Source: Isosphaera pallida ATCC 43644 (lineage in GTDB: Bacteria > Planctomycetota > Planctomycetia > Isosphaerales > Isosphaeraceae). From it: 64,000 nucleotides of DNA. Positions 27,031 to 62,931 of this stretch are shown here, in pieces. How positions within the stretch are numbered: position 1 is the first letter of the stretch; the number at the start of each line of letters is the position of its first letter. A program made the translations under genes and the position numbers. The notes beneath the pieces were generated by a model. The model ran no database searches and was not told the origin of the DNA. It saw only the letters and a list, made by a program, of their open reading frames with translations. The DNA is taken from contig NC_014962.1 of NCBI RefSeq assembly GCF_000186345.1, positions 3,500,450 to 3,564,449 on the forward strand, given 5' to 3'.

Positions 27031-27116
27031 GGCATCGTCTCCACCAGCGGGCACGCGCGACGATCGAAGATGTGATCCGACCAAGACGAGATCGCGGCCG
27101 AACGTGCCACGACCCA

Positions 27117-27146
27117 AAAATACACCCTACCCCCCCCCCCTGTCAA
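27117..27146 (-). promoter_or_regulatory. RHS promoter with 11-G tract in the spacer
   Basis: On the minus strand TTGACA (27146-27141) is followed by an 18-nt spacer that begins with eleven G (27140-27130), then TATTTT (27122-27117), about 85 nt before the RHS start. A homopolymer between the -35 and -10 boxes is the layout of slipped-strand phase-variable promoters in other bacteria. Upstream are A/T runs (27148-27169). Confidence 0.6.
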
Positions 27147-42331: not shown

Positions 42332-42661
42332 ATGCAGACCCCGTCCAGCAAGTCATCCCTGTCCCCGGCGCGGCAGCGCCTCGTCGAGCTGATGCAAGAC
42401 CTCAACTTCGGCCACATCGAGCGGCTGGAGATCCTCGACAGCCAGCCGGTCTTCGACCCGCCGCCCCGCGTCGTCCGCGAGATCAAGTTCGGCGCGCGGA
42501 ACGGGCCGCGTCCCGAGGCCGCCCTCCGCGACTTCGTGCTCAAGGCCCAGCTCGTGGAGTTCTTCGCCTGCCTCGACACGCTCGGCGACGGCGTCATCGA
42601 GCGTCTGGAGGTGCAACACGGACTGCCGTTCCGCGTCGCCCTTGAGGAGGCCGCGGCCTGA
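42332..42661 (+). CDS. Unrecognised phage protein upstream of the sigma factor gene
   Basis: 109 residues with GAGAGG 6 nt before the ATG. SPARQRLVELMQDLNFGHIE, RLEILDSQPVFDPPPRVVRE, then an amphipathic C-terminal half (FVLKAQLVEFFACLDTLGDG). No family recognised. Transcribed towards the sigma factor gene; a small regulator or anti-sigma role is conceivable, but nothing in the sequence shows it. Confidence 0.6.
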   Translation: MQTPSSKSSLSPARQRLVELMQDLNFGHIERLEILDSQPVFDPPPRVVREIKFGARNGPRPEAALRDFVLKAQLVEFFACLDTLGDGVIERLEVQHGLPFRVALEEAAA

Positions 42662-42857
42662 CAGCGGCTCTGCCTTCCGTCGTTCCGTTTCCTGATTCCT
42701 GATTCCACCACCTGACAGCAGACCGGCCACACCGTGGAGGTCGTTGTGGGTGACGCCGCTTCGGCATCACACACGACACCTTCCCGGACAGGGCTGGGTC
42801 CGCGCCGACGACGGCTCACCCACGCGCCCTCCTCCGCGGCCGGCGGAGGAGCTTCCC

Positions 42858-43433
42858 ATGCAAGAGCTGTTCGACGACCTCGCCATGAAACTCATCAAGG
42901 AGCGGGTCAAGCAGATGATCGGCCGCAACGGCTTCACCCCTTCCGACCGCGAAGACCTGAAGCAGGAGTTCGCCCTCCACCTCCTGGAGTGCCTGCGCCG
43001 GCTGAAGGAGCCGCCGCAGGACCGGCAGGCCTTCCTTCGGCGTGTGATCTCCCGCTTCGCCATCTCGCTGATCCGCCGCCGCGAGGCCCAGAAGCGCGAC
43101 CACCGGCGCGTCAGCTCGCTGAGCAAGCGGGTGGTCGATTGTGACGGGCAGCGCGTCGAGATGGCCAGGACCATTCCTGAGGACCATACGCACACTCGCC
43201 TCGGCATCGCCCCGCGCAGTCGTCTGGAAGACGTGGAACTGGGCCACGACGTGGCCACCGTCCTGGCCATGCTGCCGCCCGACTTGCGCGACCTGTGCGA
43301 GCGGCTCAAGGACCATTCCATCGCCGAGGTGGCCCGCCAGGTCGGCGTCCCCCGCACCACCCTGCACGACGCCATCAGCCGGCTGCGGCAGCACTTCGAG
43401 GACGCGGGGCTGCGGGCCTATTTGAGCCGGTGA
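42858..43433 (+). CDS. ECF-like sigma factor encoded by the prophage
   Basis: 191 residues from the ATG at 42858 with GGAGGA 7 nt upstream; an upstream extension to 42744 was rejected. Region 2-like helices: SDREDLKQEFALHLLECLRR and FLRRVISRFAISLIRRREAQ. Region 4 helix-turn-helix: LPPDLRDLCERLKDHSIAEV then ARQVGVPRTTLHDAISRLRQ. A sigma-70-type factor without region 1 or 3 would redirect host RNA polymerase to phage promoters. Its stop codon overlaps the first base of one copy of the 41-bp repeat, and the inverted copy lies 790 bp upstream of its start. Confidence 0.85.
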   Translation: MQELFDDLAMKLIKERVKQMIGRNGFTPSDREDLKQEFALHLLECLRRLKEPPQDRQAFLRRVISRFAISLIRRREAQKRDHRRVSSLSKRVVDCDGQRVEMARTIPEDHTHTRLGIAPRSRLEDVELGHDVATVLAMLPPDLRDLCERLKDHSIAEVARQVGVPRTTLHDAISRLRQHFEDAGLRAYLSR

Positions 43434-43473
43434 TCCGTCACCCCGCCGCGCCACTGCGTCCTTTAGAAGTAGA
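43433..43473 (+). promoter_or_regulatory. 41-bp phage promoter-like element, DNA-metabolism-operon copy
   Basis: Inverted partner of 42028-42068, 40 of 41 identical. It ends 24 nt before the ATG at 43497, the first gene of the plus-strand operon. No direct target duplication flanks the pair, which argues against transposon ends. Confidence 0.7.
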
Positions 43474-43496
43474 CACCCATCACGCCGAGGGACGCC

Positions 43497-44348
43497 ATGA
43501 TGCTTGCATCTCCCTGGGCGCGCCGGAACGGTTGTTCCGGCGCGCCCGCCCTCGGCCGTCTCGACTTTCTGCTGCGCGAGCCGGCCGAAGTGTACCACGC
43601 CAAATCGAAGGAGTACCTGACCAGCCACGCCCTGGCCGATTTCCGCGAGAACCCGCTCCTGTACCGCAAGCGGCAGCTCGGCCTAGTCGTCGAGGAGGAC
43701 CGCCCCGCCTTCCAGATCGGCCGCGCCGCCCACACGCTGATCCTGGAAGGCCGCGACGCCTACCGGCGCCAGTACGCCTTCGGCGGGCCGACCAACCCGG
43801 CGACCGGCAAGCTGTTCGACAGCCGCTCCAAGGCCTACCAGGAGTGGGCCGAGCGCCAGGCCAAGCCGGTCCTCACCGACCGCCAGGCCGCCCTCGTCGA
43901 GGAGCTGGCCGGCGCGGTGCAGCGCCACCCCGTGGCCGGCGAACTCCTGGCCGAAGGGCTGCCGGAGAGTGTCCTCCGCTGCGACTACCGGGGCGTCCCC
44001 TGCCAGGCCCGGCTCGACTGGCTCAACCCCGCCAAGGGCCTCGTCGATCTCAAGACCTGCGACCACCTCAAGTACCTCGAGGCCGACGCCCGGTCGTTCG
44101 GCTACCTCCACCAGCTCGCCTTCTACCGTGCCCTGCTGGCACTGGCGGGCGGCGAGCAGGTGCCGGTCTACCTGATCGCCGTCGAGAAACGCGAGCCATT
44201 TCGCTGCGGCGTCTGGCGGATCGACCCGAACGTCCTGGCCGCCTGTGAGCGGGATAACGAGGCCGCCCTGGAGCGCCTGGTGCGCTGCCGGCAGCTGGAC
44301 CACTGGCCCACCGGCTACGAGGAGCTGCGCGTCTTCGACCACATCTGA
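43497..44348 (+). CDS. PD-(D/E)XK exonuclease (RecE/Cas4-like)
   Basis: 283 residues. KSKEYLTSHALADFRENPLL, FQIGRAAHTLILEG, CRDYRG-type CDYRGVPCQARLDWLNPA, and VDLKTCD carry the D-(D/E)XK residues (Asp in ARLDW, Asp-Leu-Lys). DARSFGYLHQLAFYRALL matches the QxxxY motif. It belongs with the phage PDDEXK nucleases that resect DNA for annealing-type recombination. First gene after the 41-bp element. The first 25 residues look unconserved, so the start could be further in. Confidence 0.88.
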   Translation: MMLASPWARRNGCSGAPALGRLDFLLREPAEVYHAKSKEYLTSHALADFRENPLLYRKRQLGLVVEEDRPAFQIGRAAHTLILEGRDAYRRQYAFGGPTNPATGKLFDSRSKAYQEWAERQAKPVLTDRQAALVEELAGAVQRHPVAGELLAEGLPESVLRCDYRGVPCQARLDWLNPAKGLVDLKTCDHLKYLEADARSFGYLHQLAFYRALLALAGGEQVPVYLIAVEKREPFRCGVWRIDPNVLAACERDNEAALERLVRCRQLDHWPTGYEELRVFDHI

Positions 44349-44363
44349 CCCGAGGAACCGAGC

Positions 44364-45134
44364 ATGAGTCTCCTGGCACAAGTCCAGAGCGGCAAGCGGC
44401 CGGCCCCGCGGCGCGTGCTGCTCTACGGCACCCACGGCATCGGCAAATCGACCTTCGGCGCCCAAAGCGACCGGCCGGTGTTCGTCCAGACCGAGGACGG
44501 CCTGGGCGAGATCGACTGCGACAAGTTCCCGCTGGCGCTGTCCTACGCGGACGCCCTCAAGGCCCTGGAAGCCCTTTACACCGAGCCGCACCCCTACCGC
44601 ACGGTCGTCGTCGATTCGCTCGACTGGCTGGAGCGGCTCATCTGGGCCGAGGTCTGCCGGCAGCGCTCCGTCGAGAACATCGAGGACATCGGCTACGGCA
44701 AGGGCTACGCCTTCGCCCTGACGCCGTGGCGTGAGTTCCTCACTGGCCTGGACGCCCTGCGCAACGACCGCGGCATGACAGTCGTGCTCATCGCCCACTC
44801 GCGCATCGAGCGCTTCGAGAACCCCGAGACGGACAGCTACGACCGCTACGTGCCCAGGCTGCACAAGCTGGCCTCGCAGGTCATCCAGGAGTGGTGCGAC
44901 GAGGTCCTGTTCGCCACCTACAAGGTCTACACCAAGCAGACCGACGAGGGCTTCAGCCGCAAGAAGACCAAGGGCATCGGCACCGGCGAGCGCGTCCTGT
45001 ACACCAGCGAGCGCCCCTCCCACGTCGCCAAGAACCGCCTGGGCCTTCCCGACGAACTGCCGCTCGACTGGCACGCTTACGCTTCCTTCTTCCACCAACC
45101 CCACACCACCCAGAACGGAGGAACCAATGGCTGA
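44364..45134 (+). CDS. Phage RecA-like ATPase (AAA_24/Sak4-type)
   Basis: 256 residues; GAGGA before the ATG. Walker A is GTHGIGKST at about residues 26-34, Walker B TVVVDSLDWLERLIW, then TVVLIAHSRIERFENPET. Such single-domain RecA-like ATPases act as phage recombination mediators, here between an exonuclease and a DUF669 protein. The end overlaps the next start. Confidence 0.87.
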   Translation: MSLLAQVQSGKRPAPRRVLLYGTHGIGKSTFGAQSDRPVFVQTEDGLGEIDCDKFPLALSYADALKALEALYTEPHPYRTVVVDSLDWLERLIWAEVCRQRSVENIEDIGYGKGYAFALTPWREFLTGLDALRNDRGMTVVLIAHSRIERFENPETDSYDRYVPRLHKLASQVIQEWCDEVLFATYKVYTKQTDEGFSRKKTKGIGTGERVLYTSERPSHVAKNRLGLPDELPLDWHAYASFFHQPHTTQNGGTNG

Positions 45135-45582
45135 CCTGCACGGCTTCAACGCCAACGAAGTCGATCCGACGACCGACCTGGAGCCGATCCCCGCCGGCAA
45201 GTACCTGGCGATGATCACCGACAGCGAGATGAAGCCGACCAAGAGCGGCGACGGCCGCTACCTGCAGCTGACCTTCCAGATCCTGGAGGGGCCTTACAAG
45301 AACCGCTTCGTCTGGGCGCGGCTGAACCTGCACAACGCCAACGAGACGGCGGTGAAGATCGCCCGCGCCGAGCTGTCGGCGATCTGCCGGGCGGTGGGCG
45401 TCTTGACGCCCAGGGACAGCTGCGAGCTGCACAACCTGCCGCTGGTCATCACGGTCAAGCTGAAGAAGCGCGAGGACACCGGCGAGCTGCAGAACGAGGT
45501 CCGCGGCTACGCCAAGAAGGAGGCGGCTTCGGGCCAGCCGCAGCAGGCGGCGACCAACGCGCCCCCCTGGCGGCGCGGCTGA
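45127..45582 (+). CDS. DUF669 protein (ssDNA-binding-type partner)
   Basis: 151 residues with GGAGGAACC before the ATG. ADLHGFNANEVDPTTDLEPI, AGKYLAMITDSEMKPTKSGD, LQLTFQILEGPYKNRFVWAR and LNLHNANETAVKIARAEL are DUF669 features. These proteins replace SSB in phage recombination modules. The disordered Gln/Ala tail resembles an SSB tail. Confidence 0.85.
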   Translation: MADLHGFNANEVDPTTDLEPIPAGKYLAMITDSEMKPTKSGDGRYLQLTFQILEGPYKNRFVWARLNLHNANETAVKIARAELSAICRAVGVLTPRDSCELHNLPLVITVKLKKREDTGELQNEVRGYAKKEAASGQPQQAATNAPPWRRG

Positions 45583-45699
45583 ACAGCACCCCTGCGACCG
45601 CTGCGCGATGTCGGGACAGGACACACACCTCGCCGCCTTAAAGGGTCCATTCGTCGGTCGTGCAGCGGTCGCTTTCCTTTTTCTCCGTCGAGGGCCGGA

Positions 45700-46149
45700 A
45701 TGCTGACCCTGGAACTGCCGTTCCCGCCGAGCCTGAACCACTACTACCGGCACCTCGGCCATGTGACGCTCATCAGCCGCCGGGGCCGGGCGTACCGCGA
45801 GGCGGTCATGGCCTTGCTGGCAGCGCAAAAGATCGAGCCCATGAGCGGGCCGCTGGACCTAGCCGTCGAGCTGTTCCCACCGGACCGCCGCAAGCGCGAC
45901 GCGGACAACTTTCACAAGTGCCTGTCGGATGCGCTGCAACACGCCGGCGTGTTCCACGACGACAGCCAGGTGGTCCGCCTTGAGATCTCCAAGCACGAGC
46001 CTGTCAAGGGCGGCAAGGTCGTCGTCCGCATCCAGGAGCGAAGCACCGATGGCCGGCTGGAAGACCTCAAGAGTGCGCGCCGGTATCTGAGCCGCGTGAT
46101 CGAGCAGATCGAGGGGGCCGTTGGTGCAACTCCGACCTTACCAACGTGA
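45700..46149 (+). CDS. rusA: RusA-type Holliday junction resolvase
   Basis: 149 residues. LPFPPSLNHYYRHLGHVTLI, FPPDRRKRDADNFHKCLSDA (the acidic metal site with paired Asp) and GVFHDDSQVVRLEISKHEPV are RusA signatures. It resolves branched DNA before packaging. The C-terminal 35 residues are extra. It overlaps the helicase start by 26 bp. The 117 bp before it show no gene. Confidence 0.92.
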   Translation: MLTLELPFPPSLNHYYRHLGHVTLISRRGRAYREAVMALLAAQKIEPMSGPLDLAVELFPPDRRKRDADNFHKCLSDALQHAGVFHDDSQVVRLEISKHEPVKGGKVVVRIQERSTDGRLEDLKSARRYLSRVIEQIEGAVGATPTLPT

Positions 46150-47869
46150 AGCCGTTGAGGCCGTCTACGCCTACCTGCGGACGCACGACGACAACCCGGT
46201 GGTCGTGATCCCGACCGCGGGCGGCAAGACGCCGGTCATGGCGACCATCTGCAAGGACGCGGTGACGCGCTGGAACGGCCGGGTGCTGATCCTGGCCCAC
46301 GTCAAGGAGCTGCTGGAGCAGGCGGCGGACAAGCTGCGCCAGGTCTGCCCCGAGGTCCACTTCGGCGTCTACTCGGCGGGCCTGAAGCGGCGCGACACCG
46401 GTCGGGCGGTCATCCTGGCCGGCATCCAGTCGGTCTACCAGCGGGCCGTCGAGCTGGGCACGTTCGACCTGGTCCTGGTGGACGAGGCCCACCTGATCCC
46501 GCCCGAGGGCGACGGCATGTACCGGCAGTTCCTGGCCGACGCCAAGGGGATCAACCCGCACCTTCGCGTCGTCGGCCTGACGGCCACGCCGTACCGGCTG
46601 AAGTCCGGCCTCATCTGCAGCCCGGACCACTTCCTCAACGCGATCTGCTTCGAGGTCGGCGTTCGGGAGCTGATCGTCCAGGGCTACCTCTGCCCACTGG
46701 TCACCAAGGCCGGCAGGGCGCGGGCGGACACCAGCGGCCTGCACGTGCGCGGCGGGGAGTACGTCGCCGTTGAGGTCGAGGACCTGATGGACCAGGACGC
46801 GCTGGTGCGGGCCGCTTGCGCCGAGATCGTCGAGTACACCCGTGACCGCCAGACGGTCTTGATCTTTGCTTCGGGGATCAAGCACGGCCAGCACGTCGTG
46901 CATGTACTGAAAGAGCAGCACGGCATCGAGTGTGGCTTCGTCAGCGGAGAGACGCCGGACGGCGAACGGGACCGATTGATTGCCCGGTTCCGGGATCAGG
47001 AGTGGGCACGCCAGCTTCAGATCGACTTTGGAGCAAACGCCGCCGAGCCGCTGAAGTACCTGTGCAACGTCAACGTGCTGACGACCGGCTTCGACGCGCC
47101 GAACGTCGATTGCGTGGCCCTGCTGCGGCCGACGTTGTCGCCGGGCCTGTACTACCAGATGGTCGGCCGGGGCTTCCGACTCCACCCCGGCAAGCAGAAC
47201 TGCCTGGTCCTCGACTTCGGCGGCAACGTGCTGCGGCACGGCCCGGTGGACCAGGTCCGGGTCAAGGAGGTCGGCGGCCAGGGCAGCGGCCAGGCTCCGG
47301 CGAAGGAGTGTCCGCAATGTCAGTCGGTCATCGCCGCCGGCTACGCGCGCTGCCCCGATTGCGGCTACGAGTTCCCGCCGCCCGAGCGCGGCAAGCACGA
47401 TGCGAAAGCGAGCAGCGCCGGCATCCTGTCGGGCCAGGTGACGACGACCAGGTACATCGTGCAGGACGTGTTCTACAGCGTCCACCAGAAGCGCGGCGCG
47501 CCGGAGGACGCGCCCAGGACCATGCGGGTGGACTACAAGGTCGGCTGGCACGAGTACAAGTCCGAGTGGGTCTGCTTCGAGCACACCGGCTACGCCCGGC
47601 AGAAGGCGGTCGCCTGGTGGAAGCAGCGCTCGCAGGAGCCTGTTCCAGAGACGGCCGAAGAAGCGGTCGCGCTGGCGCAACACGGGCGCCTGGCCCCAAC
47701 GCGCGAGATCACCGTTCGCAGCGTCACCGGCGAGGACTTCGACCGCATCATCGGCTACGAGCTGGGCGACATCCCACCGCAGCCGGACGGCAAGGACCTG
47801 CCCGAGGACGCGCTCGACTTCCCGTTCGGAGCTAACGCGGTCGCCGCGGAGGAGGAAATTCCGTGGTGA
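46124..47869 (+). CDS. DEAD/DEAH-box superfamily 2 helicase
   Basis: 581 residues from GTG 46124 with GAGGGGG 6 nt upstream (TTG 46121 possible). QLRPYQREAVEAVYAYL, PTAGGKTPVMA (motif I), DLVLVDEAHLIPP (DEAH, motif II), VVGLTATPYR (III), NVLTTGFDAPNVD (V), and YYQMVGRGFRLHPGK (VI). A zinc-ribbon (CPQCQSVIAAGYARCPDCGY) follows, then a C-terminal domain of about 130 residues. A phage replication/recombination helicase. Confidence 0.92.
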   Translation: MQLRPYQREAVEAVYAYLRTHDDNPVVVIPTAGGKTPVMATICKDAVTRWNGRVLILAHVKELLEQAADKLRQVCPEVHFGVYSAGLKRRDTGRAVILAGIQSVYQRAVELGTFDLVLVDEAHLIPPEGDGMYRQFLADAKGINPHLRVVGLTATPYRLKSGLICSPDHFLNAICFEVGVRELIVQGYLCPLVTKAGRARADTSGLHVRGGEYVAVEVEDLMDQDALVRAACAEIVEYTRDRQTVLIFASGIKHGQHVVHVLKEQHGIECGFVSGETPDGERDRLIARFRDQEWARQLQIDFGANAAEPLKYLCNVNVLTTGFDAPNVDCVALLRPTLSPGLYYQMVGRGFRLHPGKQNCLVLDFGGNVLRHGPVDQVRVKEVGGQGSGQAPAKECPQCQSVIAAGYARCPDCGYEFPPPERGKHDAKASSAGILSGQVTTTRYIVQDVFYSVHQKRGAPEDAPRTMRVDYKVGWHEYKSEWVCFEHTGYARQKAVAWWKQRSQEPVPETAEEAVALAQHGRLAPTREITVRSVTGEDFDRIIGYELGDIPPQPDGKDLPEDALDFPFGANAVAAEEEIPW

Positions 47870-49755
47870 CACCGGGCGAGCTGCTGACGGCTGCCCTCCG
47901 CTACGCCGAACTGGGCTACCGGGTGTTCCCCTGCGCGCCGGGCAACAGCACCCCGCTGACCGACCACGGTTTCCTCGACGCGACCACGGAGGTTGAGCAG
48001 ATCGAGCGTTGGTGGGGGCAGCACCCGACCGCGAACGTAGCCATCGCCACCGCAGGGCTGCTCGTCGTCGATCTCGACCCGGCAGAAGGGAACGCGGCCA
48101 ACCCGTGGCTCAAGGACGACCCGGACAAGCGGCTCGACTTGGCGGCCGCACCGACGGCCATGACGCCGCGCGGCGGCCGGCACCACGTCTTCCGCAAGCC
48201 AGCGGGGAAGGGCTGGCGCTGCACCGCGAGCCGGCTGGCCCCGAAGGTTGATACGCGCACGGACGGTGGCTACATCATCGTGCCCCCGTCCTGGCGGCCG
48301 GACGGGGCATACTCCTGGGTGCCGGGGCTGGAACTTGACGGCCCTCCCGACCGTCTGCCCGAGCCGCCGCCGTGGTTGGTCGCGTTGCTCGACTCCTTGG
48401 CCCAGGAAACGCCCACGTTGGCCCACGTCGCGGCCGGCGGGGGCCAGGCGAACCCGATCCCGGAGGGCCAACGGAACGCGACCCTGGCGCGCCTGGGCGG
48501 GAACATGCGCCGGGTCGGGATGACCCTGGCCGAGATCGCCGCCGCCTTGCTCCAGACCAACAAGGACCGCTGCTTCCCGCCGCTGTCGCCCCGCGAGGTC
48601 GAGCGCATCGCCGCAAGTGTCGCCCGGTACGAGCCCGACCAGATCGCGACCGCGATGGCCGAGGGGCACTGGGACCAGTTGATGCAGGTCCAGGCGCCGC
48701 AGCTCGCCCCGGTCAGCCTGGCCGACCTGACGGCGCGCTACCCCGACCTGCGCCGGCCGGTGATCCACGGCCTGCTGCGCCAAGGCGAGACGATGAACGT
48801 CATCTCCGCCCCCAAGATCGGCAAGTCCTGGCTGGTCACCGACCTGGCCCTGGCCGTCGCCACGGGCCGGCCCTGGCTCGACACGTTCGCGTGCGAAGCC
48901 GGCGACGTGCTGATCATCGACAACGAGCTTCATGGCGAGACCTCGGCCAACCGCATCCCCAAGGTCGCGGCGGCCCGGCAGATCGGGCTCGGTGATGTTG
49001 GCGGGCACGTCTTCGTGCAGAACCTCCGGGGGCACTGGCAGGACATCTTCTCGCTGGGGCCGTACTTCCGCGCGCTGGAGCCGGGGCGGTTCCGGGTGAT
49101 CATCCTGGACGCCATGTACCGCTTCATGCCGCGGGAGATGGACGAGAACGACAACGGCACAATGGCGAACGTTTACAACGCCATTGATCGCTACGCCGAC
49201 CTGCTGGGCTGCTGCTTCGTGCTCATCCACCACACCAGCAAGGGGAACCAGTCCGGCAAGGCGATCACCGACGTTGGTGCAGGTGCTGGCAGCCAGAGCC
49301 GGGCGACCGACACGCACCTGGTCCTGCGCCCCCACGAGGAGGACGACGTGGTGGTGCTGGAGGCGGCCGTGCGTTCCTGGCCGCCAGTCCTACCAAGGTG
49401 CCTGCGCTGGGCCTTCCCGGTGTGGACGCCGGCCGACGACCTCGACCCGACGCTGCTGCGGAGTGAGCGCCCCAGGCGGGCACGCCGGGCGGAGGCGGAC
49501 GCGGACGAAGCGGAACAACCCGAGCCTTCCTGGGACGCGGAGCGGTTCGCGGCGGCGTTCGTGACGGGCACGCCCAAGACGCGCGACGCGATCCTGGCTG
49601 AGGCGAACGCGGCCGGCCTGTCCGACTGGAAGGCCGAACGTCTGCTGCGCCGGGCGGAAGGACTGGGCCTGGTCCACCGCTGGGCGAGCGGTCGCAACCG
49701 CCCGTCGGCCTACGCGAACGTTCCCCAGCCCGCCAGCGAGGATGCTGACCAGTGA
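47863..49755 (+). CDS. Bifunctional DNA primase-polymerase fused to RepA-like ATPase
   Basis: 630 residues from GTG 47863 (GGAGGAGG upstream), overlapping the helicase. Prim-Pol domain: YAELGYRVFPCAPGNSTPL, HPTANVAIATAGLLVVDLDP (catalytic DxD-like), GGRHHVFRKP, DTRTDGGYIIVPPS. A middle helical segment follows, then a RecA/RepA-like ATPase: NVISAPKIGKSWLVTDLALA (Walker A), DVLIIDNELHGE, FRVIILDAMYRFMP (Walker B), CCFVLIHHTSKGNQSGKAI. The final 100 residues contain a winged-helix-like TPKTRDAILAEANAAGLSDW. It probably initiates phage replication at the repeat cluster just downstream. Confidence 0.9.
   Translation: MVTPGELLTAALRYAELGYRVFPCAPGNSTPLTDHGFLDATTEVEQIERWWGQHPTANVAIATAGLLVVDLDPAEGNAANPWLKDDPDKRLDLAAAPTAMTPRGGRHHVFRKPAGKGWRCTASRLAPKVDTRTDGGYIIVPPSWRPDGAYSWVPGLELDGPPDRLPEPPPWLVALLDSLAQETPTLAHVAAGGGQANPIPEGQRNATLARLGGNMRRVGMTLAEIAAALLQTNKDRCFPPLSPREVERIAASVARYEPDQIATAMAEGHWDQLMQVQAPQLAPVSLADLTARYPDLRRPVIHGLLRQGETMNVISAPKIGKSWLVTDLALAVATGRPWLDTFACEAGDVLIIDNELHGETSANRIPKVAAARQIGLGDVGGHVFVQNLRGHWQDIFSLGPYFRALEPGRFRVIILDAMYRFMPREMDENDNGTMANVYNAIDRYADLLGCCFVLIHHTSKGNQSGKAITDVGAGAGSQSRATDTHLVLRPHEEDDVVVLEAAVRSWPPVLPRCLRWAFPVWTPADDLDPTLLRSERPRRARRAEADADEAEQPEPSWDAERFAAAFVTGTPKTRDAILAEANAAGLSDWKAERLLRRAEGLGLVHRWASGRNRPSAYANVPQPASEDADQ
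48412..48432 (+). repeat. 21-bp repeat encoding PTLAHVA, copy in the primase gene
   Basis: CCCACGTTGGCCCACGTCGC plus G. Identical 21-mers lie at 52531-52551 and 52600-52620 inside another gene, always in the frame that gives PTLAHVA. Confidence 0.7.
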
Positions 49756-52901: not shown

Positions 52902-53237
52902 TCACTTGGCGAGGGCAAACTTGCCGCGCTCGGTCTTGGTGAAGCGGGACTCCTTGGCCTTGGTCGTGATCTCGCGGAGGATGGCGGCGTACAGCGTGGC
53001 GGCGGGCATCTTGCCGTTGGGGCTGGTCCAGTACCCCTTCGCCGCCATCGCGTCGATCATCTCCTGGCAGGTCATCGCCTGGCCCGTCTCGCCCAGCACC
53101 TTGGCGGCGGCGTCCAGGCAGCCGACCTTCTTCGGCTTGGCCTCGGCTTCGGGCTTGGCCTTGGCGGGCTTCGCCTTCGGGGCCTTCTTGCCCGCGTCCG
53201 CCGGGGCCTCGGTCTTGGGGGTCTTCTTCTTCGCCAT
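52902..53237 (-). CDS. HARE-HTH (winged helix) protein with Lys/Ala-rich N terminus
   Basis: 111 residues. A histone H1-like basic N terminus (MAKKKTPKTEAPADAGKKAP, then KPAKAKPEAEAKPKKVG) precedes a HARE-HTH domain: CLDAAAKVLGETGQAMTCQE, MIDAMAAKGYWTSPNGKMPA, TLYAAILREI. Likely a DNA-binding protein. Oriented against the flanking phage genes, so perhaps expressed in lysogeny. Confidence 0.78.
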   Translation of the reverse strand: MAKKKTPKTEAPADAGKKAPKAKPAKAKPEAEAKPKKVGCLDAAAKVLGETGQAMTCQEMIDAMAAKGYWTSPNGKMPAATLYAAILREITTKAKESRFTKTERGKFALAK

Positions 53238-53377
53238 GTTGCGTCTCCCTGTACGGGGTTGCGGAAATCGGCGACGCGACCGTCGCGCTGCCAACGTCAG
53301 GGCAGTCAGTTACCTCGCGTTCCGCCATACAGCAAGCGCAGTTCGAGCGGAATTCTGAAGGTTTTTCCGGGGGCGCG

Positions 53378-56172: not shown

Positions 56173-56670
56173 ATGGACACCAACGTCGGGAAAGAACTGG
56201 CCGCGCTGCAGCGGCTGACCGTCAAAGAGCTGCGGACCCGGTACGCCGAGGTCTTCGGCGAAGCGACCAACGCCAACAACCGGGCCTGGCTCGTCAAGCG
56301 CCTCGCCTGGCGGCTGCAGGCCCTGGCCGAAGGCGACCTGTCCGAACGCGCTCGTCGCCGGGCTGCCGAGTTGGCCAGCGACGCCGACCTGCGCCTGAAC
56401 CCGCCCAAGGCCCTGCCTGCCGTGCCTGCCTCGGAGCGGACCACCGCTCACGTCCTCGCCTTCAGACCGGACGACCGCCTGCCGCCGCCGGGCACCGTCC
56501 TCACCCGCCGCTACAAGGGCGAAGTACTGCAGGTGAAAGTTCTGCCGCACGGCTTCGAGTACGAGGGCGAGGTCTACGGCTCGCTCAGCGCCGTCGCCAA
56601 GGCGATCACCGGCTCGCACTGCAACGGCTATCTGTTTTTCCGCCTCGGCGACAAAGGGGGTGACGCATGA
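56173..56670 (+). CDS. DUF2924 protein
   Basis: 165 residues, AAAGGAGA before the ATG. LAALQRLTVKELRTRYAEVF, NNRAWLVKRLAWRLQALAEG, PPGTVLTRRYKGEVLQVKVL and EYEGEVYGSLSAVAKAITGS are DUF2924 hallmarks. The family nearly always sits beside a serine recombinase; here it overlaps it by ATGA. It probably binds DNA and assists recombination, but the role is not established. Confidence 0.9.
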   Translation: MDTNVGKELAALQRLTVKELRTRYAEVFGEATNANNRAWLVKRLAWRLQALAEGDLSERARRRAAELASDADLRLNPPKALPAVPASERTTAHVLAFRPDDRLPPPGTVLTRRYKGEVLQVKVLPHGFEYEGEVYGSLSAVAKAITGSHCNGYLFFRLGDKGGDA

Positions 56671-58259
56671 ACCGCAACATCAAGAACCCCAAGCCGGCCA
56701 CGCTGCCGGTCGTCCGCTGTGCCGTCTACACCCGCAAGTCCACCGAGGAGGGCCTCGAGCAGGAGTTCAACTCACTCGACGCCCAGCGCGAGGCCGGCGA
56801 GGCGTTCGTGGCCAGCCAGCGGCAGGAGGGTTGGACCTGCCTGCCGGAGCGTTACGACGACGGCGGCTTCACCGGCGGCAACATGGAACGTCCGGCCCTG
56901 CAGCGGCTGCTCGCCGACATCGAGGCGGGCAAGATCGACTGCGTGGTCGTCTACAAGGTGGACCGCCTGAGCCGCTCGCTGCTCGACTTCGCCCAGATGA
57001 TGCAGACCTTTGACAAGCACCGCGTCTCCTTCGTGTCCGTCACGCAACAGTTCAACACCGCCACGTCGATGGGCCGGCTGGTGCTGAACGTGCTCCTGTC
57101 GTTCGCGCAGTTCGAGCGCGAGATCATCTCCGAGCGCACCCGGGACAAGATCGCCGCCACGCGCCGCAAGGGCAAGTGGGCCGGTGGGCACCCGCTCCTC
57201 GGCTACGACGTGGACCCGCGCGGCTTCCGGCTGGTCGTCAACGAGGCCGAGGCCGTCCGCGTGCGGGCCATCTTTAACCTCTACCTCGAACACGAGGCTT
57301 TGCTGCCGGTCGTGCAGGAGCTGGAGCGGCGCGGCTGGGTCAACAAGCGCTGGACCACCCGCAAGGGCCGCGAGCGCGGCGGCCAGCCCTTCGAACGCAC
57401 CAGCCTGTACCGCCTGCTGACCAACGTCGCCTACGTCGGCAAGGTCCGCTACAAGGACGAGGTCCACGACGGCGAGCACCCCGGCATCGTCGATCCCGCC
57501 GACTTCCAGCGCGTTCAGACGCTTTTGCAGCGCAACGGCCAGACCCGCGGCGCGCCGGTGCGGAACAAGTTCGGCGCCTTGCTCAAGGGGATCATCCGCT
57601 GCGTCCCCTGCGACTGCGCCATGACGCCGTCGCACACGACCCGCAACGGCAGCAAGCGCTACCGCTACTACGTTTGCTCCAGCGCCCAGAAGCGAGGCTG
57701 GAACACCTGCCCGTCCAAATCGATCCCCGCCGCCCAGATCGAGGAGTTCGTGGTCGGCCAGATCAAGTGCATCGGCCAAGACCGGGCCCTGCTCGCAGAG
57801 GTCCTCGCCCAGGCCCGCCAGCAAGACGGCGCCCGCACGAGCGAGCTGGAGGCCGAGCAGCGGAGCCTGGAAAAAGACCTGACCCGCTGGCACGCCGAGC
57901 TGCGCAAGCTCTCTTGCCAGCTCCGGCCGGGCGACGACAACGGCTCGATCATTTCCCGGCTGGCCGATCTGCAGGAACGGATCGGCCTGGTCGAAGGGCG
58001 GATGCGGAAGGTCCGCGAGCAAATCCAGACGGTCCAGCAGCAGTTGCTGGACGAAGAAGAGACGGCCGTGGCCATGTCGGTCTTCGACCCAGTCTGGGAG
58101 GCGCTGACGCCCCGCGAGCAGGCCCGCGTGATCGGGCTGCTGGTCGAGCGCGTGGACTACGACGGGGCCTCGGGCAAAGTGTCCATCACCTTCCACCCCA
58201 CGGGCATCAAGGCGCTGGCGCAGCAGCTCGCCGACCAGCGCCGGGAGAAAACCGCATGA
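56667..58259 (+). CDS. Large serine recombinase, probable prophage integrase
   Basis: 530 residues. Catalytic AVYTRKSTEEGLEQEFNSLD with Ser25, VVYKVDRLSRSLLDFAQMMQ and FAQFEREIISERTRDKIAAT. Recombinase domain: HPLLGYDVDPRGFRLVVNEA, TNVAYVGKVRYKDEVHDGEH. Zinc ribbon: IRCVPCDCAMTPSHTTRNGS with YYVCSSAQKRGWNTCPSKSI. A coiled-coil region (about 385-450) is typical of phage serine integrases. It sits between DUF2924 and a small HTH protein, all overlapping. Confidence 0.94.
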   Translation: MNRNIKNPKPATLPVVRCAVYTRKSTEEGLEQEFNSLDAQREAGEAFVASQRQEGWTCLPERYDDGGFTGGNMERPALQRLLADIEAGKIDCVVVYKVDRLSRSLLDFAQMMQTFDKHRVSFVSVTQQFNTATSMGRLVLNVLLSFAQFEREIISERTRDKIAATRRKGKWAGGHPLLGYDVDPRGFRLVVNEAEAVRVRAIFNLYLEHEALLPVVQELERRGWVNKRWTTRKGRERGGQPFERTSLYRLLTNVAYVGKVRYKDEVHDGEHPGIVDPADFQRVQTLLQRNGQTRGAPVRNKFGALLKGIIRCVPCDCAMTPSHTTRNGSKRYRYYVCSSAQKRGWNTCPSKSIPAAQIEEFVVGQIKCIGQDRALLAEVLAQARQQDGARTSELEAEQRSLEKDLTRWHAELRKLSCQLRPGDDNGSIISRLADLQERIGLVEGRMRKVREQIQTVQQQLLDEEETAVAMSVFDPVWEALTPREQARVIGLLVERVDYDGASGKVSITFHPTGIKALAQQLADQRREKTA

Positions 58260-58669
58260 CGACCCCGCTGACCTTAGAGTGCAAGGTCCACTTCCACCGC
58301 CGCGGGCGCGGCAGCCGGAAGGAACTGCGGCCGGGCGAGGAGCCGTTGCCCGCCGTGGAGCCGGGCCGGGTGCCGCGGGTCGCCCGGCTCATGGCCCTGG
58401 CCATCCGCTTCGACGGGCTGCTCCGCGACGGGGTGATCGCCAGCTACACCGAGCTGGCGGCCCTCGGCCACGTGACGCGGCCCCGCGTCAGCCAGATCAT
58501 GAACCTGCTGCAGCTGGCCCCCGACATCCAGGAGGAGATCCTGTTCCTACCTCGGACGGTCCGCGGCCGCGACTCGCTGCAGCTGCGCCAGCTGCAACCC
58601 ATTGCCGCCGTCCTTGATTGGCGCAAGCAGCGGCGCCTGTGGCGGGAGCTGCTCGCCGCCGCGCGGTAA
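58256..58669 (+). CDS. Small HTH protein of the recombinase module
   Basis: 137 residues, ATGA overlap with the recombinase. RVPRVARLMALAIRFDGLLR, SYTELAALGHVTRPRVSQIM and NLLQLAPDIQEEILFLP form a ParB/KorB-like helix-turn-helix. This protein regularly follows DUF2924-recombinase pairs. Possibly a directionality factor or regulator of the module. Confidence 0.8.
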   Translation: MTTPLTLECKVHFHRRGRGSRKELRPGEEPLPAVEPGRVPRVARLMALAIRFDGLLRDGVIASYTELAALGHVTRPRVSQIMNLLQLAPDIQEEILFLPRTVRGRDSLQLRQLQPIAAVLDWRKQRRLWRELLAAAR

Positions 58670-58737
58670 GGCACTGCCGTTCAAGTCTTTGCGACCCCTA
58701 CGACCCGCACCGGCGGGTCGTTCTCGTCACCGGCCGC

Positions 58738-58767
58738 TTGATGCCGACCTGGAAGTATAGTATACTT
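58738..58767 (+). promoter_or_regulatory. Promoter of the cargo pair with overlapping palindrome
   Basis: TTGATG (58738-58743), 17-nt spacer, TATACT (58761-58766); the start codon at 58854 is about 80 nt after the expected transcription start. A perfect palindrome, AAGTATAGTATACTT (58753-58767), covers the -10 box and looks like an operator. Confidence 0.6.
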
Positions 58768-58853
58768 GCGTACACTTTAACCAGGCGTGTGGCCCTTCCC
58801 AGCCGACCCACGCCAGCGCTCATCCTCCCCCGTCACAAGCATCGAGGTGACAC

Positions 58854-60044
58854 ATGGCAACCTTTCGACTCCGACGCTTCTCCAACCCGGAAGTCCTCCG
58901 GGCCATCGCACCGAGGAGGCTGATCGCCTTCCTCGAACCGCACCGCGCGTTCTTCGAGGCGCGCGGCCTCGTCTTCCCGCGTGCCCCCAGCACAGGTCCG
59001 ATTGACTACGAGGCGCTGGTCGATCTCTTCATGGACCCGGGGGCGGGCCTGCCCAAGGAGCTGCTCGACGCACTCTTCCTCGTAGACGAGATGGCCACGC
59101 CGCACGGCATGGACGCCCTCCTGGAGGACGCCCGCTGCTCCGGCCTGCCCCTGGACGAGGCCGCCGAGGACTCGCCCGCCGACGTTGCCGTCCAGGTCTG
59201 GCTCCTGGACTGCCGCCTCCTCGAAAGCAAGCACGCCGAGCAGTTCCTCGTCCGGCCGCGCTCCTTCGAGTGCTACCAGACCGGCAGAGCCAAGGTTCCG
59301 CCCTTCACGTTGCCGGACACTACCGTCTGCGGCAACCTCGAACGCGACCTGGATGACTGGTTCGAGGAGAAGAAGCGCGGCCGCGGTACGCGCGTGTTCG
59401 TCTACCCTCGCGAGGACGGCGTCTGGTTCCTGGTCCGCCACGGCGAGCCGTTCAAGCGCGAGGAGAGCCTCAACGGCCCCGAGACGGTCAGCGTCTGCTA
59501 CCGCCCCCTGAAGTACGACGTGCTCGTCTACCAGCCGCAGATCGGCGAGCTGCGGGTCAACGCCCGCTCCAAGCACGAGAAGCGCCTGTACCGCACGCAG
59601 TTCGGCAAGCACTTCTTCGGCGACGAGGACTTCTTCCCCGGCGACAGCAAGTACACGCTGGAGCCGCTGCTGACGCGCGGCGAGGCGGCGCTGGCCTGCG
59701 TGGACGTGCCCGGCATGGAATGGGTCCGGCTCCGCGAGGCGCACTTCTTCCTGGGCGGCCCGTCCAACGAGGTCCAGTCCCACCGGGCCGACGACGTCTT
59801 CGCGGCGTTCCGGTCGCGGGACGGCAAGCCGCCCGCGGGCCGGATCATCCGCGCCGTCTTCCAGGTGAAGTTCACGGACTCCAAGCGGCCGCGCTCCGTG
59901 ACGATCCGCCCGTCGAACATCGCGCAGTACACCCGCGACGACGACGCGGAGCTGGTCGAGCAGTGGCTCAGGCGGCGGGGGTTCATCCTCGCGGGTGCCG
60001 ACACGGGAAGGGGGGAGGGCCATGCGACTCTGGCAAGCGCTTGA
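58854..60044 (+). CDS. Cargo gene A, unrecognised 396-residue protein
   Basis: GAGGTG before the ATG. Starts ATFRLRRFSNPEVLRAIAPR with a helical N-terminal third. The middle has RLLESKHAEQFLVRPRSFEC, LERDLDDWFEEKKRGRGTRV and FVYPREDGVWFLVRHGEPFK. The last part is RVNARSKHEKRLYRTQFGKH and VTIRPSNIAQYTRDDDAELV. No transmembrane segments or nucleotide-binding motif. The beta-rich middle with paired His/Glu and basic residues could be a nuclease or WYL-like ligand-binding domain, but I cannot assign it. It overlaps gene B by 23 bp, lies directly beyond the prophage integrase and has its own promoter: typical defence-cargo placement. Confidence 0.75.
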   Translation: MATFRLRRFSNPEVLRAIAPRRLIAFLEPHRAFFEARGLVFPRAPSTGPIDYEALVDLFMDPGAGLPKELLDALFLVDEMATPHGMDALLEDARCSGLPLDEAAEDSPADVAVQVWLLDCRLLESKHAEQFLVRPRSFECYQTGRAKVPPFTLPDTTVCGNLERDLDDWFEEKKRGRGTRVFVYPREDGVWFLVRHGEPFKREESLNGPETVSVCYRPLKYDVLVYQPQIGELRVNARSKHEKRLYRTQFGKHFFGDEDFFPGDSKYTLEPLLTRGEAALACVDVPGMEWVRLREAHFFLGGPSNEVQSHRADDVFAAFRSRDGKPPAGRIIRAVFQVKFTDSKRPRSVTIRPSNIAQYTRDDDAELVEQWLRRRGFILAGADTGRGEGHATLASA

Positions 60045-61068
60045 GGCGCTCCCCGGCCCGGCGGCGGTGCTGGCCGAGTGGCGCCGGCTCGCCGGCGCGG
60101 AGGGGCTGGACCTGCTGACGCCCTACCTGCAGCCCCTGCCGAGGCTGGCGGCCTCCTACCCGCGCCTGGTCGGCGGCGAGCCCACCTACCCGTATGAGGT
60201 CGTCGAGCACGGGCCGGACGATTTCGTCGGGGTCTGCCCCGAAACCGAAGACCGCATCGTGCTCGCCCGGAACGACCTGGTCATCTACGAGCTGGACTGG
60301 CCCCTGTTCCTGGCCGACATCGCGGCGGCGCTGGGCTTCCAGTATCGGGCTGCCGGCACGGACGGCCTCCCGGCGGCGACGCGCCTGGTCGGCGACTACC
60401 GGCCGGCCGCGGGCTACTCGTTCCCGGTCTACCTGACCGTCCCGCTGGAGTCCCGCAGCCTGACGGGCGCGGTTTGCATGCTCGTCTCGTTGAGCGACGG
60501 CGCGTTCGTGCTCTCGACACCGACCCGGTGTCGGCTGCGCCCGGACGCGCAGCAGATCCTGGAGCGGAAGAGGTGCTGTTTCCTCCCGCTGGAGGAAGCC
60601 CTGGCCGCGACAGGGCCGAGACAGTGGCAGGCCACGGAGGCGGCCGTTCAGGCGCTGCAGGGCTTCACCGGTCTGCACGTCCCTTCACCCGAGGCGAACG
60701 ACGGGACGGCCTTCTTCCCCACGCCGGCAGGTGCGACCTGGGCCGACCTCAGCATCCGCTTCGTCGATGGCCACTCCGTGGCGGTCCGTGTCGGGGCCGC
60801 GGGCGGGACGTACCACTACGCGCAGATGGGCATGGCCGACGGCCGCAACGCCAGCCCGACCAAGCAGTGGGAGCTGCTCCAGGTTCTGGCCCGGAACCAC
60901 GGCGTGCTGACCTGGAAGAGCCCGGACGCTAGCCGCAAGAACAAGAAGCGGCGGGAGCTGCTGGCCAGGGACCTGAAGGCGTTCTTCCGCATCGACGGCG
61001 AGCCGATCGTGGCGACCGACGACGGCAAGGGCTGGCGGACCACCTTCGCGCTGGCGTCGGACGCCTGA
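60022..61068 (+). CDS. Cargo gene B, unrecognised 348-residue protein with C-terminal winged-helix-like end
   Basis: ATG at 60022 after a GGGGGGAGGG site. RLWQALEALPGPAAVLAEWR, then PYEVVEHGPDDFVGVCPETE, DRIVLARNDLVIYELDWPLF and LADIAAALGFQYRA. The last 90 residues (SPTKQWELLQVLARNHGVLT, KNKKRRELLARDLKAFFRID) look like a winged helix of the two-component regulator type. Translationally coupled to gene A. No known family recognised; a DNA-binding or sensing partner of A is the likely role. Confidence 0.72.
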   Translation: MRLWQALEALPGPAAVLAEWRRLAGAEGLDLLTPYLQPLPRLAASYPRLVGGEPTYPYEVVEHGPDDFVGVCPETEDRIVLARNDLVIYELDWPLFLADIAAALGFQYRAAGTDGLPAATRLVGDYRPAAGYSFPVYLTVPLESRSLTGAVCMLVSLSDGAFVLSTPTRCRLRPDAQQILERKRCCFLPLEEALAATGPRQWQATEAAVQALQGFTGLHVPSPEANDGTAFFPTPAGATWADLSIRFVDGHSVAVRVGAAGGTYHYAQMGMADGRNASPTKQWELLQVLARNHGVLTWKSPDASRKNKKRRELLARDLKAFFRIDGEPIVATDDGKGWRTTFALASDA

Positions 61069-61287
61069 CGACCGGGGGCGCGCGATTGTTCGTACCCGCG
61101 AGCGTAAGAGCAGTGGTAACTCGGTGGGGTATGGTTACGCGAGAGTCTGAGAGTTTTGGCGGGAGAGTTTCGGGGGGCGAACGTAATCCTGGGGGTTGCA
61201 CTCGCACCCCGAATGCTCTCGCCCGAACCAGAGAGTGCCGGAGGCGGGGCCAGGGACGCAAAAACCACGGAAAAAGGCCACAAACAC

Positions 61288-61319
61288 GAAACGCCGAGGC
61301 CACTGGCTCTCGGCGTTTC
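61288..61319 (-). terminator. Bidirectional terminator-like hairpin downstream of tRNA-Asn
   Basis: An 11-bp perfect stem (61288-61298 with 61309-61319, GAAACGCCGAG paired with CTCGGCGTTTC) and a 10-nt loop. It lies 45 nt past the 3-prime end of the tRNA on the minus strand. It could also stop transcripts from cargo gene B. The rest of 61069-61363 shows no gene. Confidence 0.55.
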
Positions 61320-61363
61320 TCGGTAACCCGTGTGTCCGGTCTGCTCGATACCAGACCAGTCAG

Positions 61364-61436
61364 CTCCCCGACAAGGACTCGAACCTTGAACCTAGCGGTT
61401 AACAGCCGCTCGCTCTACCGATTGAGCTATCGGGGA
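61364..61436 (-). tRNA. tRNA-Asn (GTT)
   Basis: 73 nt on the minus strand folds into a complete cloverleaf: acceptor TCCCCGA/TCGGGGA, D-arm GCTC/GAGC, anticodon arm AGCGG-CTGTTAA-CCGCT, T-arm CAAGG-TTCGAGT-CCTTG, discriminator G. The anticodon GTT (plus-strand 61401-61403) reads asparagine codons. CCA is not encoded. Confidence 0.96.
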
Positions 61437-61563
61437 TCACAACCGCCACCGACCCACTCAGCCGGTCGGTCGTGGTCGTCGCTCATGTGCGTCCCAACTA
61501 TATCAAACTGGGTCGTGAAATCAAGACCTTCGCCGGCGAACGTGAACGTGTTCCGGGGGCGGG

Positions 61564-62931
61564 TCAGGGTCGAGTGACCCGGTCTGAAAAGACGAACGCG
61601 CCCAAATCGGCAGGCGAGTTGGGTGAACGTGGGCGGTGGAGCAGGTCGAGTTCGGGAGGCGCGGAAGGCGGGGGGGTTGGGACGCGCTGACCCGCAGCGC
61701 GGGCTGGGGAGGCCGAGGTCAGACCAAAACGGCTTTCCAGGTCGTGGAGGCTCGTCAGTGAGGCGGACGCCACATCAAGAAAGAGCGACTGGTGGCGCGT
61801 GGTGGTACGATCGTGTCGGGTGGGGTTGGGGAAGCGGGGATCGGCGAGGACGCAGTGGGTCGTGGGAGAGGGTAGCACGAGCGATCGGGGGTCGTCAGAC
61901 CAAAGCAGGTTGTGGTCGAATTCGTAATGGTCTGGCTGGATTCGGCCCGCGTCGAACGGGCCTTTGAGCCAGGAACGTTGGTCGGGTCGAATGGTTCGGC
62001 ACCAAAGGATGTTGTGTCGCACCACGCTGCCGCGAATTGAGTCGGGCCGGTGACGTTCGATGAGTTGGAGTTCGGGAGCCTGCCATTTTTGGCGGTCGTC
62101 CCAACCATTGCGGTAGCAGGTGTTGTAGAGGATCGTCGCTACGCCGTCCATCACCCGGATGCCCGCGCCGCCGTTGTCGAACACCAGATTCGATTCGATT
62201 CGCGCCGTGCCGCCGCCTCCAACGTCGAACATGATGCCGTTGCCGTCGGTGCGGTGCGACGAGGCGTCCACATTGTTGAAGCAGACGTTGCGGCGAATCA
62301 CGTGGTGCGAACGTCCACCTCCCTCACCCTTGTTGTTCAAATGAATCCCGCTCGCCCAGCCGTCCCCCCAACCGTTTTCGTAGCAGATGTTGTCCTCGAC
62401 GGTCAGGTGGGCGTCGTAGTCGGCGTGGGGATACGACGCATAGTTGAGACTTATGCCCGCTGCTCCGTTGGCGTGACAAATCATGCGCCGGATCGTCACA
62501 TAACCGACATGCCGCGCGTCGATCCCCGCGCTGCGAAAGTGACACAGTTCCAAACCTTCGATGACCCATCCATCGTTTTCACGAAGCGCTAGGAACGACC
62601 AAAACCGACGCTTTCCGTCCACAACAACCTTGTGGCCCGCGCGGGCGCGGACGGTGATGGGCAGGTCGGGACGTCCGTTGACCTTGGGAGTGAAATCACC
62701 CTCGTGATAGGTCCCGGCGTGAATTTCCAGAACGTCGCCCGGGGCCGTCAGCGCCTTTAGGCCGCGGGTGAGAGTTCGAAACGGAGAGGACTCGTCGCCG
62801 TTGTTGTGGTCATCGCCGCGGGGCGAGACGTGAACAACTCGGGAGGGGGGCGGTTCAATCGAGGCGGAAGTTGCTTCCATACCGAGAAGGAATGTTGCCA
62901 AGGTGGTTGGAAGCAGCTTCGCCGGGTTCAT
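61564..62931 (-). CDS. Secreted right-handed parallel beta-helix protein (polysaccharide lyase-like)
   Basis: 455 residues. A signal peptide (NPAKLLPTTLATFLLGMEAT region) precedes HVSPRGDDHNNGDESSPFRT LTRG, the classic start of pectate-lyase-like beta-helices (DUF1565/PL9-like). Helical coils follow: HVGYVTIRRMICHANGAAGI, VEDNICYENGWGDGWASGIH, VIRRNVCFNNVDASSHRTDG, IESNLVFDNGGAGIRVMDGV. It probably binds or cleaves polysaccharide outside the cytoplasm or in the planctomycete periplasm. The C-terminal 60 residues are proline-rich. Lies beyond the tRNA, so it is chromosomal. Confidence 0.85.
   Translation of the reverse strand: MNPAKLLPTTLATFLLGMEATSASIEPPPSRVVHVSPRGDDHNNGDESSPFRTLTRGLKALTAPGDVLEIHAGTYHEGDFTPKVNGRPDLPITVRARAGHKVVVDGKRRFWSFLALRENDGWVIEGLELCHFRSAGIDARHVGYVTIRRMICHANGAAGISLNYASYPHADYDAHLTVEDNICYENGWGDGWASGIHLNNKGEGGGRSHHVIRRNVCFNNVDASSHRTDGNGIMFDVGGGGTARIESNLVFDNGGAGIRVMDGVATILYNTCYRNGWDDRQKWQAPELQLIERHRPDSIRGSVVRHNILWCRTIRPDQRSWLKGPFDAGRIQPDHYEFDHNLLWSDDPRSLVLPSPTTHCVLADPRFPNPTRHDRTTTRHQSLFLDVASASLTSLHDLESRFGLTSASPARAAGQRVPTPPPSAPPELDLLHRPRSPNSPADLGAFVFSDRVTRP

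Follow-up and report, generated by a model that had tools for sequence, protein, structure and literature searches.

A phage-borne gene pair of Isosphaera pallida that joins a predicted RdgC/RexA-type fold to a partner with an exchangeable C-terminal part

In phage lambda, rexA and rexB follow the repressor gene cI and are co-expressed with it. PMC11077077 describes RexA as a member of the RdgC/Iml3/Chl4 fold group that binds DNA without sequence preference, biases the lambda switch and holds it in the lytic state, and RexAB as acting in phage exclusion. A resemblance between RdgC and Iml3/Chl4 is also reported in PMC4080450. PMC6426606 and PMC12894663 report defence by gp43/gp44 of phage CarolAnn and by RexAB of P. 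putida, respectively, and PMC11390915 describes RdgC-histone operons of Bacillus and Halobacteria in which an RdgC-like protein has a partner containing a winged helix. Here we describe two adjacent genes, A and B, in a prophage of Isosphaera pallida ATCC 43644. They lie in a stretch of 64,000 nucleotides (contig NC_014962.1, positions 3,500,450 to 3,564,449), called the window below, and all coordinates are those of the window. A-B belongs to a family of phage gene pairs that is widespread but has no name, and we place it as a predicted RdgC/RexA-fold protein with its partner in the immunity region. Among the matches listed in a search of the open-access literature, which leaves most subscription journals and bioRxiv outside, no description of an A-B-like pair was found.

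The pair and its upstream site comprise the following features.

58854..60044, plus strand: gene A, 396 residues, with a helical N-terminal part (about residues 1-130) and a part predicted to have the RdgC/kinetochore fold (about residues 133-382)
60022..61068, plus strand: gene B, 348 residues, with a conserved N-terminal part (N-part) and a winged-helix-like C-terminal domain
about 60022-60684: N-part of B, residues 1-221
about 60742-61050: winged-helix-like C-terminal domain of B, residues 241-343
58738..58766, plus strand: promoter-like site of A-B, TTGATG-17-TATACT
58761..58777, plus strand: TATACTTGCGTACACTT, with two direct repeats of TAYACTT, 10 bp apart, lying over the -10 box; a candidate operator

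B accompanies A wherever enough sequence is available. Scans gave 126 loci with A, 70 from genomes and 56 from viral contigs, and when 392 genomes of the phylum were searched in full, that of the window among them, A was found in 25. B was present in every one of the 109 loci in which A is complete and followed by at least 600 bp of sequence, and in 118 of the 126 overall; the other eight are at contig ends (L170, L182, L188, L222) or have an incomplete A (L153, L160, L162, L228). Of the 82 pairs measured, 76 have overlapping genes, the overlap in the window being 23 bp (60022-60044). Three relatives (L056, L057, L062) have A and B fused into one open reading frame (ORF), with a weaker B match in L062 (E 4e-13). 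Relatives keep the reading frames, at identities of 17 to 90% for A and 21 to 85% for B; one gene or the other is interrupted in a few relatives (for example A in L115 and L204, and B in L121). Dereplication reduced the 126 loci to 118 with a full-length A and then to 89, and 116 B sequences to 97, or 98 with the window.

Neither protein falls into a recognised family, as a preliminary description of this region had said. A has no match at E up to 5 in four libraries, Pfam, PADLOC and PHROG among them, and at the same threshold B has one NCBIfam repeat match, far under its cut-off (18.5 vs 65 bits). Searches with both sequences and profiles gave no usable match in Pfam, PADLOC, PHROGs, NCBIfam or PDB sequences. 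Nor did any of the 50,697 cultured-phage records match A or B at E up to 1. We took the weak matches that did appear (1acx, an ELWxxDGT repeat, carboxypeptidase B at E 0.009, HypE and others) as chance.

A is predicted to share the fold of RdgC and the inner-kinetochore proteins. Its model, built from 84 aligned sequences, has a mean predicted local distance difference test score (pLDDT) of 89. When the top 1000 Foldseek chains from the PDB were aligned with VIA-align, RdgC (2owy) came first, with Z 11.1 over 227 residues and a root-mean-square deviation (rmsd) of 5.8, and this match covers A residues 133-387. The top 16 rows are all RdgC or inner-kinetochore entries (Z 11.1-8.2), and the next row stands at Z 7.1. 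Eight kinetochore rows begin at residue 67-69 (Z 10.0-8.5), covering part of the helical region. The subunits are named in the titles of 6eqt, 6c0w, 4kr1 and 4it3, and we take the chain letters N, L and E of the constitutive centromere-associated network (CCAN)/Ctf19 entries to denote the CENP-N/Chl4 and CENP-L/Iml3 subunits. A is predicted to share the fold of these subunits, at 7-14% identity; they differ from A in being eukaryotic, in their centromere function and in pairing two such folds as a heterodimer. Nine predicted viral models match A at E up to 0.001, the best two named exonuclease (3.8e-6 and 1.0e-5), and models with recombination-associated names match at 2.8e-5 and 4.1e-4. The fold assignment is drawn from the RdgC and inner-kinetochore entries; RexA (8TWQ) is outside the 50 rows listed, and we do not count its absence there against the assignment. 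Near-invariant residues of A include R195, H196, R202, R217, R347 and R361, and these arginines and the histidine are compatible with DNA contact, though not proof of it.

B combines one conserved N-part with a C-terminal part (C-part) that is exchanged among relatives. The N-part forms a single family (98/98), and the C-parts sort into nine groups (45, 17, 15, 8, 4, 4, 3, 1 and 1 members). In 20 of the 98 proteins the nearest N-part neighbour carries another C-part group; L231 and L175, for instance, are 62% identical in the N-part, yet have C-parts of types 3 and 1. The model of the window's B has a mean pLDDT of 91 (39 sequences), and its residues 241-343 resemble OmpR/PhoB-type winged helices in six entries, with a modest Z of 5.2-5.8 over 81-84 residues (rmsd 3.1-3.5), in line with the winged-helix-like end noted earlier. 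In a Pfam search with one member per C-part type, a helix-turn-helix (HTH) was matched by type 3 (8e-6) and weakly by types 2 and 8, and type 4 was Rrf2-like. The C-part may be a DNA reader, as modelled for type 0, that of the window, as weak sequence matches suggest for types 2, 3, 4 and 8, and presumably in the others too.

The N-part looks non-catalytic. No catalytic lysine is conserved, and no lysine column of B reaches 50% conservation in the 98 sequences. Residues 1-221 match best the nuclease part of Can2 (8bao; Z 7.0, 153 aligned), which is within the usual background; MspJI and a repair endonuclease are also among the rows. Foldseek against the PDB gave no significant match, the top rows being small SH3/Tudor-like domains. 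We read the N-part as a non-catalytic scaffold. B also has no convincing membrane segment: the hydropathy maximum (KD19) is 1.64 in the window protein, and 12 of 97 family members exceed 1.6.

We then compared the position of A-B among relatives, using 82 dereplicated loci with enough upstream sequence and, for downstream genes, 61 loci with at least 4.5 kb. Genes were called with a simple composition-based script that misses or misplaces some of them, and all neighbour counts are lower bounds. An S24/LexA repressor gene lies upstream of A on the same strand in 22/82 loci (gap 0-58 bp in 20), and ImmA/ImmR in 10/82 (gap 61-68 bp in 8); an immunity repressor of either kind stands within 68 bp of A in 28/82 loci, the remainder having none so close. 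In 21/82 loci without S24 or ImmA/ImmR, A is preceded at 139-1316 bp by S, a small gene that also lies upstream of A in the window. S, S24 or ImmA/R is upstream in 53/82 loci. A comes within 100 bp after 20 of the 23 S24 genes detected in the 89 loci, where 2.8 would be expected for a plus-strand gene of these loci taken at random. Downstream of A-B, sigma-like, AAA_24 or helicase genes are found in 49/61 loci, and relatives of the sigma-70-like cluster of the window prophage in 45/61. Because the pair is kept between an integrase or repressor and the early genes, A-B looks like part of the phage switch region. The preliminary description was right to call the pair coupled, uncharacterised and phage-borne; its view of the pair as cargo is not supported, given the place that the pair keeps in relatives. 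In the loci examined we saw neither core metabolic contexts nor housekeeping enzymes, the two findings it had named as speaking against an accessory role, and the predicted fold of A resembles that of RdgC, a nucleoid-associated protein, rather than a metabolic enzyme.

The dedicated promoter proposed earlier has a counterpart in the sequence. TTGATG-17-TATACT is the sole promoter-like site in 58400-61500 (9/12; shuffles gave a mean of 0.2, standard deviation 0.4), and position 58738, where the region was first said to start, is its -35 hexamer. The overlapping TATACTTGCGTACACTT is invariant in seven aligned sequences (that of the window and those of six close relatives, one at 99% identity), and its flanks vary. 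With up to 3 mismatches allowed, the window holds a single copy (0.01 expected), and with up to 1 mismatch so does the whole genome. Eight viral contigs carry the 17-bp motif, and we took one of them, L243, as chance, no A, B, integrase or S being detected in it. Direct repeats spaced by about one turn are common targets of OmpR-type winged helices, so autoregulation by B through TATACTTGCGTACACTT is a natural guess; by this analogy, B may bind the TAYACTT repeats at the A promoter. Across loci, direct repeats at 10-11 bp spacing are not enriched upstream of A. Palindromes upstream of A in 88 loci had a mean best score of 5.39 vs 4.81 in mononucleotide shuffles, and by eye they show no common motif. 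One further element lies between S and A.

58700..58721, plus strand: hairpin ACGACCCGCACCGGCGGGTCGT, with no T run and not called as a terminator

The order repressor-A-B in relatives, the predicted fold of A and the exchangeable C-part of B together suggest a clamp that is aimed by an adaptor. We judge the chances to be about even that A and B together form a non-enzymatic regulator that binds DNA and acts on the phage immunity (lysis-lysogeny) region. More tentatively, the pair could represent a swapped-head class of switch module, in which a non-specific clamp of the RdgC/kinetochore fold works with an adaptor whose DNA-reading head is exchanged. A would bind DNA as a clamp or horseshoe, with a fold of the RdgC/RexA/Iml3-Chl4 class, and B would be its partner in a complex, whose exchangeable C-terminal DNA-reading domain (a winged helix in this prophage) would aim that complex at the operators of the phage itself. 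For many relatives we predict that lysogens transcribe A-B together with a LexA/CI or ImmR-ImmA repressor; here, the pair's own promoter carries the conserved repeat that B may bind. In effect, the pair would set the decision between dormancy and lytic development or make it more stable. The same clamp would be aimed at different operators, and in phages of the window type it may replace a classical CI repressor. B and S are candidates for the repressor of the window phage: the whole genome has one S24 and three HTH_3 matches, all of them outside the window, ImmA and other HTH classes not having been searched genome-wide.

Several results weigh against a role as a DNA-binding switch regulator. 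For A, the rmsd values in the PDB comparison are large (4-6 Å), the template modelling (TM) scores of the nine viral models are low (0.22-0.38 by query), and hhalign of A with RexA, RdgC and Sbash gp30, each a single-sequence template, gave a probability of 0.1 (percent) and E 0.42-0.47. For B, the structural matches are weak (best Z 7.0; best Foldseek E in the PDB 0.17), and there is none at E 0.001 among the predicted viral structures of BFVD. Pfam found no HTH in the members searched for types 0, 1, 5, 6 and 7, so for type 0 the description of B as a DNA reader comes wholly from the predicted structure. Directly upstream of A, 29/82 loci have no recognised repressor or S. The loci are related to one another, and the S24 profile derives from their own genes, so the count of S24 genes followed by A describes an arrangement and is not an independent test. 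Finally, repeats like those of the window are not generally present upstream of A in other loci (3/30 and 0/58 loci at p<0.05).

The strongest competitor to switch regulation, and in line with the anti-phage role suggested in the preliminary description, is Rex-like exclusion, in which A-B expressed from the prophage would block or abort infection by other phages, with A as sensor of phage DNA or proteins and B as effector or adaptor. Lambda RexA-RexB, CarolAnn gp44/gp43, Sbash gp30/gp31 and P. putida RexAB are two-gene pairs that lie 3' of a co-oriented CI/LexA-type repressor gene. A-B is a two-gene pair as well, with overlapping genes; in part of its relatives it shares the genomic slot of lambda RexAB and, by prediction, the fold class of the first protein, and the papers cited above credit CarolAnn gp43/gp44 and P. 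putida RexAB with defence. A follows the repressor by 0-58 bp in 20/82 relatives; the lambda gap between cI and rexA is 112 bp. Against these likenesses stand several differences. No CI-type repressor precedes A in the window. A has no sequence similarity to RexA or Sbash gp30, homology to RexA being undetected by hhalign and Pfam, and it carries a helical N-terminal part of about 130 residues. RexB is a four-helix membrane protein; B is not, and it has an exchangeable C-part. The RexB-like membrane partner that carries the published effect is missing, B has no conserved catalytic lysine, no PADLOC defence-system model matches A or B, and in relatives the pair is accompanied by phage early genes. 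We regard exclusion as less likely than switch regulation but as a serious rival, because RexAB-type pairs do defend.

A role as a replication or recombination accessory, with A acting like RdgC on RecA or forks and B binding the phage origin, is improbable. It would fit the predicted RdgC fold of A residues 133-387 and the many relatives in which A-B precedes replication genes, and exchangeable DNA-binding parts occur also in origin binders. However, the replication modules near A-B differ while A-B stays: they are of a primase-polymerase type in the window, NrS-1-like in L050, RecD2-like in L045, PolA in L232 and DnaG-like in L121. In the window A-B is separated from its module, and 58200-61600 contains no iteron-like array, just two short two-copy repeats. 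A also differs from RdgC in having no Pfam or hhalign match to it and in belonging to a phage gene pair rather than being a single host gene; the predicted monomer fold of A is similar, and sequence does not place A in the RdgC family. The RdgC-histone operons likewise encode an RdgC-like protein with a winged-helix partner, and they differ in having a histone gene first, no search aimed at a histone gene beside A-B having been made, and a partner with a transmembrane domain, which B does not convincingly have.

We think it very improbable that A-B is a recombination directionality factor or another helper of the serine integrase. Integrase, S, A and B are contiguous in the window and several relatives, but A-B also lies beside tyrosine integrases (L166, L171, L202), and no serine integrase was detected in the sequence available for those loci. 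Least credible of all is B as an active PD-(D/E)XK nuclease of the Can2/Card1 type with A as its sensor, a view that the Can2, MspJI and repair endonuclease rows and the partly conserved acidic positions 85, 92 and 192 (0.92, 0.61 and 0.84 in 98 sequences) would favour, and that the lack of any lysine conserved in half of those sequences, a Z within background and a Foldseek probability of 0.16 for 8bao speak against.

The surrounding prophage is genuine, with portal, head/protease, tape-measure, terminase and primase-polymerase genes; the portal, head/protease and tape-measure genes are on the minus strand. On the right side of the window the order is early module, terminase, DUF2924, serine integrase, S, A and B. 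ORF listing and a tRNA call confirmed the lengths of A and B, their overlap and the tRNA-Asn as first described, and the genes upstream of A agree with a position between the integration module and that tRNA.

42332..49755, plus strand: phage early module, with a primase-polymerase gene
56173..56670, plus strand: DUF2924 gene, upstream of the integrase
56667..58259, plus strand: large serine integrase (Resolvase, Recombinase, Zn-ribbon)
58256..58669, plus strand: gene S, 137 residues, phrog_14161; "HTH-like" is a by-eye label
61363..61436, minus strand: tRNA-Asn

The early module begins with an EF-hand-like ORF and a sigma-70-like gene, both under cut-off, followed by DUF3799 and then AAA_24, DUF669, RusA and helicase genes. 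DUF3799 and the primase-polymerase were named by Pfam, and the other four by BLAST to labelled relatives. The sigma-70-like gene (42744-43433) heads the module, and its regions 2 and 4 are both just below the Pfam cut-off. Similarity to viral contig L004 stops at 61371, just inside the 3' end of the tRNA-Asn, so we place the right attachment site there. For the left site, no second copy of the tRNA end was found in the window among the matches listed (20 of 55 repeat families). The early genes that elsewhere directly follow B start at 42332 in the window, where B adjoins the attachment site instead. Because early genes lie directly 3' of B in L003, L005-L008 and L014-L016, integrase-S-A-B appears to have moved as a block in the window phage.

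Gene S lies directly 3' of the serine integrase. It is present in 80 of the 392 phylum genomes and A in 25, so the integrase-S module is broader than A-B. In some integrase-S elements, another large protein is found near the A-B slot (L095 4783-6930, L105 3498-6263, L109 4830-6605, L112 5308-6657), and the large proteins of L095, L105 and L109 contain a QueC-like stretch (E 6e-7 to 3e-6). The idea that such elements without A share the window-type C-part in that slot was unsupported; the type-1 C-part of B was found instead, in three non-B proteins (L095, L105, L112). In genome G381 (L098 3455-11500 and L045 1-8838), defence genes lie between S and the HTH_3/M78-A-B genes; the insert holds a weak methyltransferase-like gene, a DUF1848 gene, a type I restriction-modification system and GmrSD.

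Other observations concern the sample and the window. No weight was placed on the phylum names given to metagenome bins. A and B matches of equal lengths occur in bins named for four different groups (L146, L148, L149, L150), and A-B contigs agree in lengths and positions across differently named bins or both collections (L131 and L194, L172 and L230); equal-length contigs in differently named bins are a sign that phage contigs have been misassigned. A HARE-HTH gene (52902-53294, minus strand) lies inside the early/packaging region on the strand opposite to its neighbours. Beyond the tail genes, 19555-27117 (minus strand) is a single ORF of 2520 codons with internal short repeats, presumably RHS-like.

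A general explanation of what RexA does in the lambda switch has been missing. If our reading of A-B is correct, a large, separate family with the RdgC fold, often in the same slot and with a soluble partner that differs in its C-part from phage to phage, would make clamps a common layer of phage decision-making. A-B pairs would then offer an experimental system that comes with sequence-specific targeting, and they would add a bacterial-virus branch to the inner-kinetochore fold.

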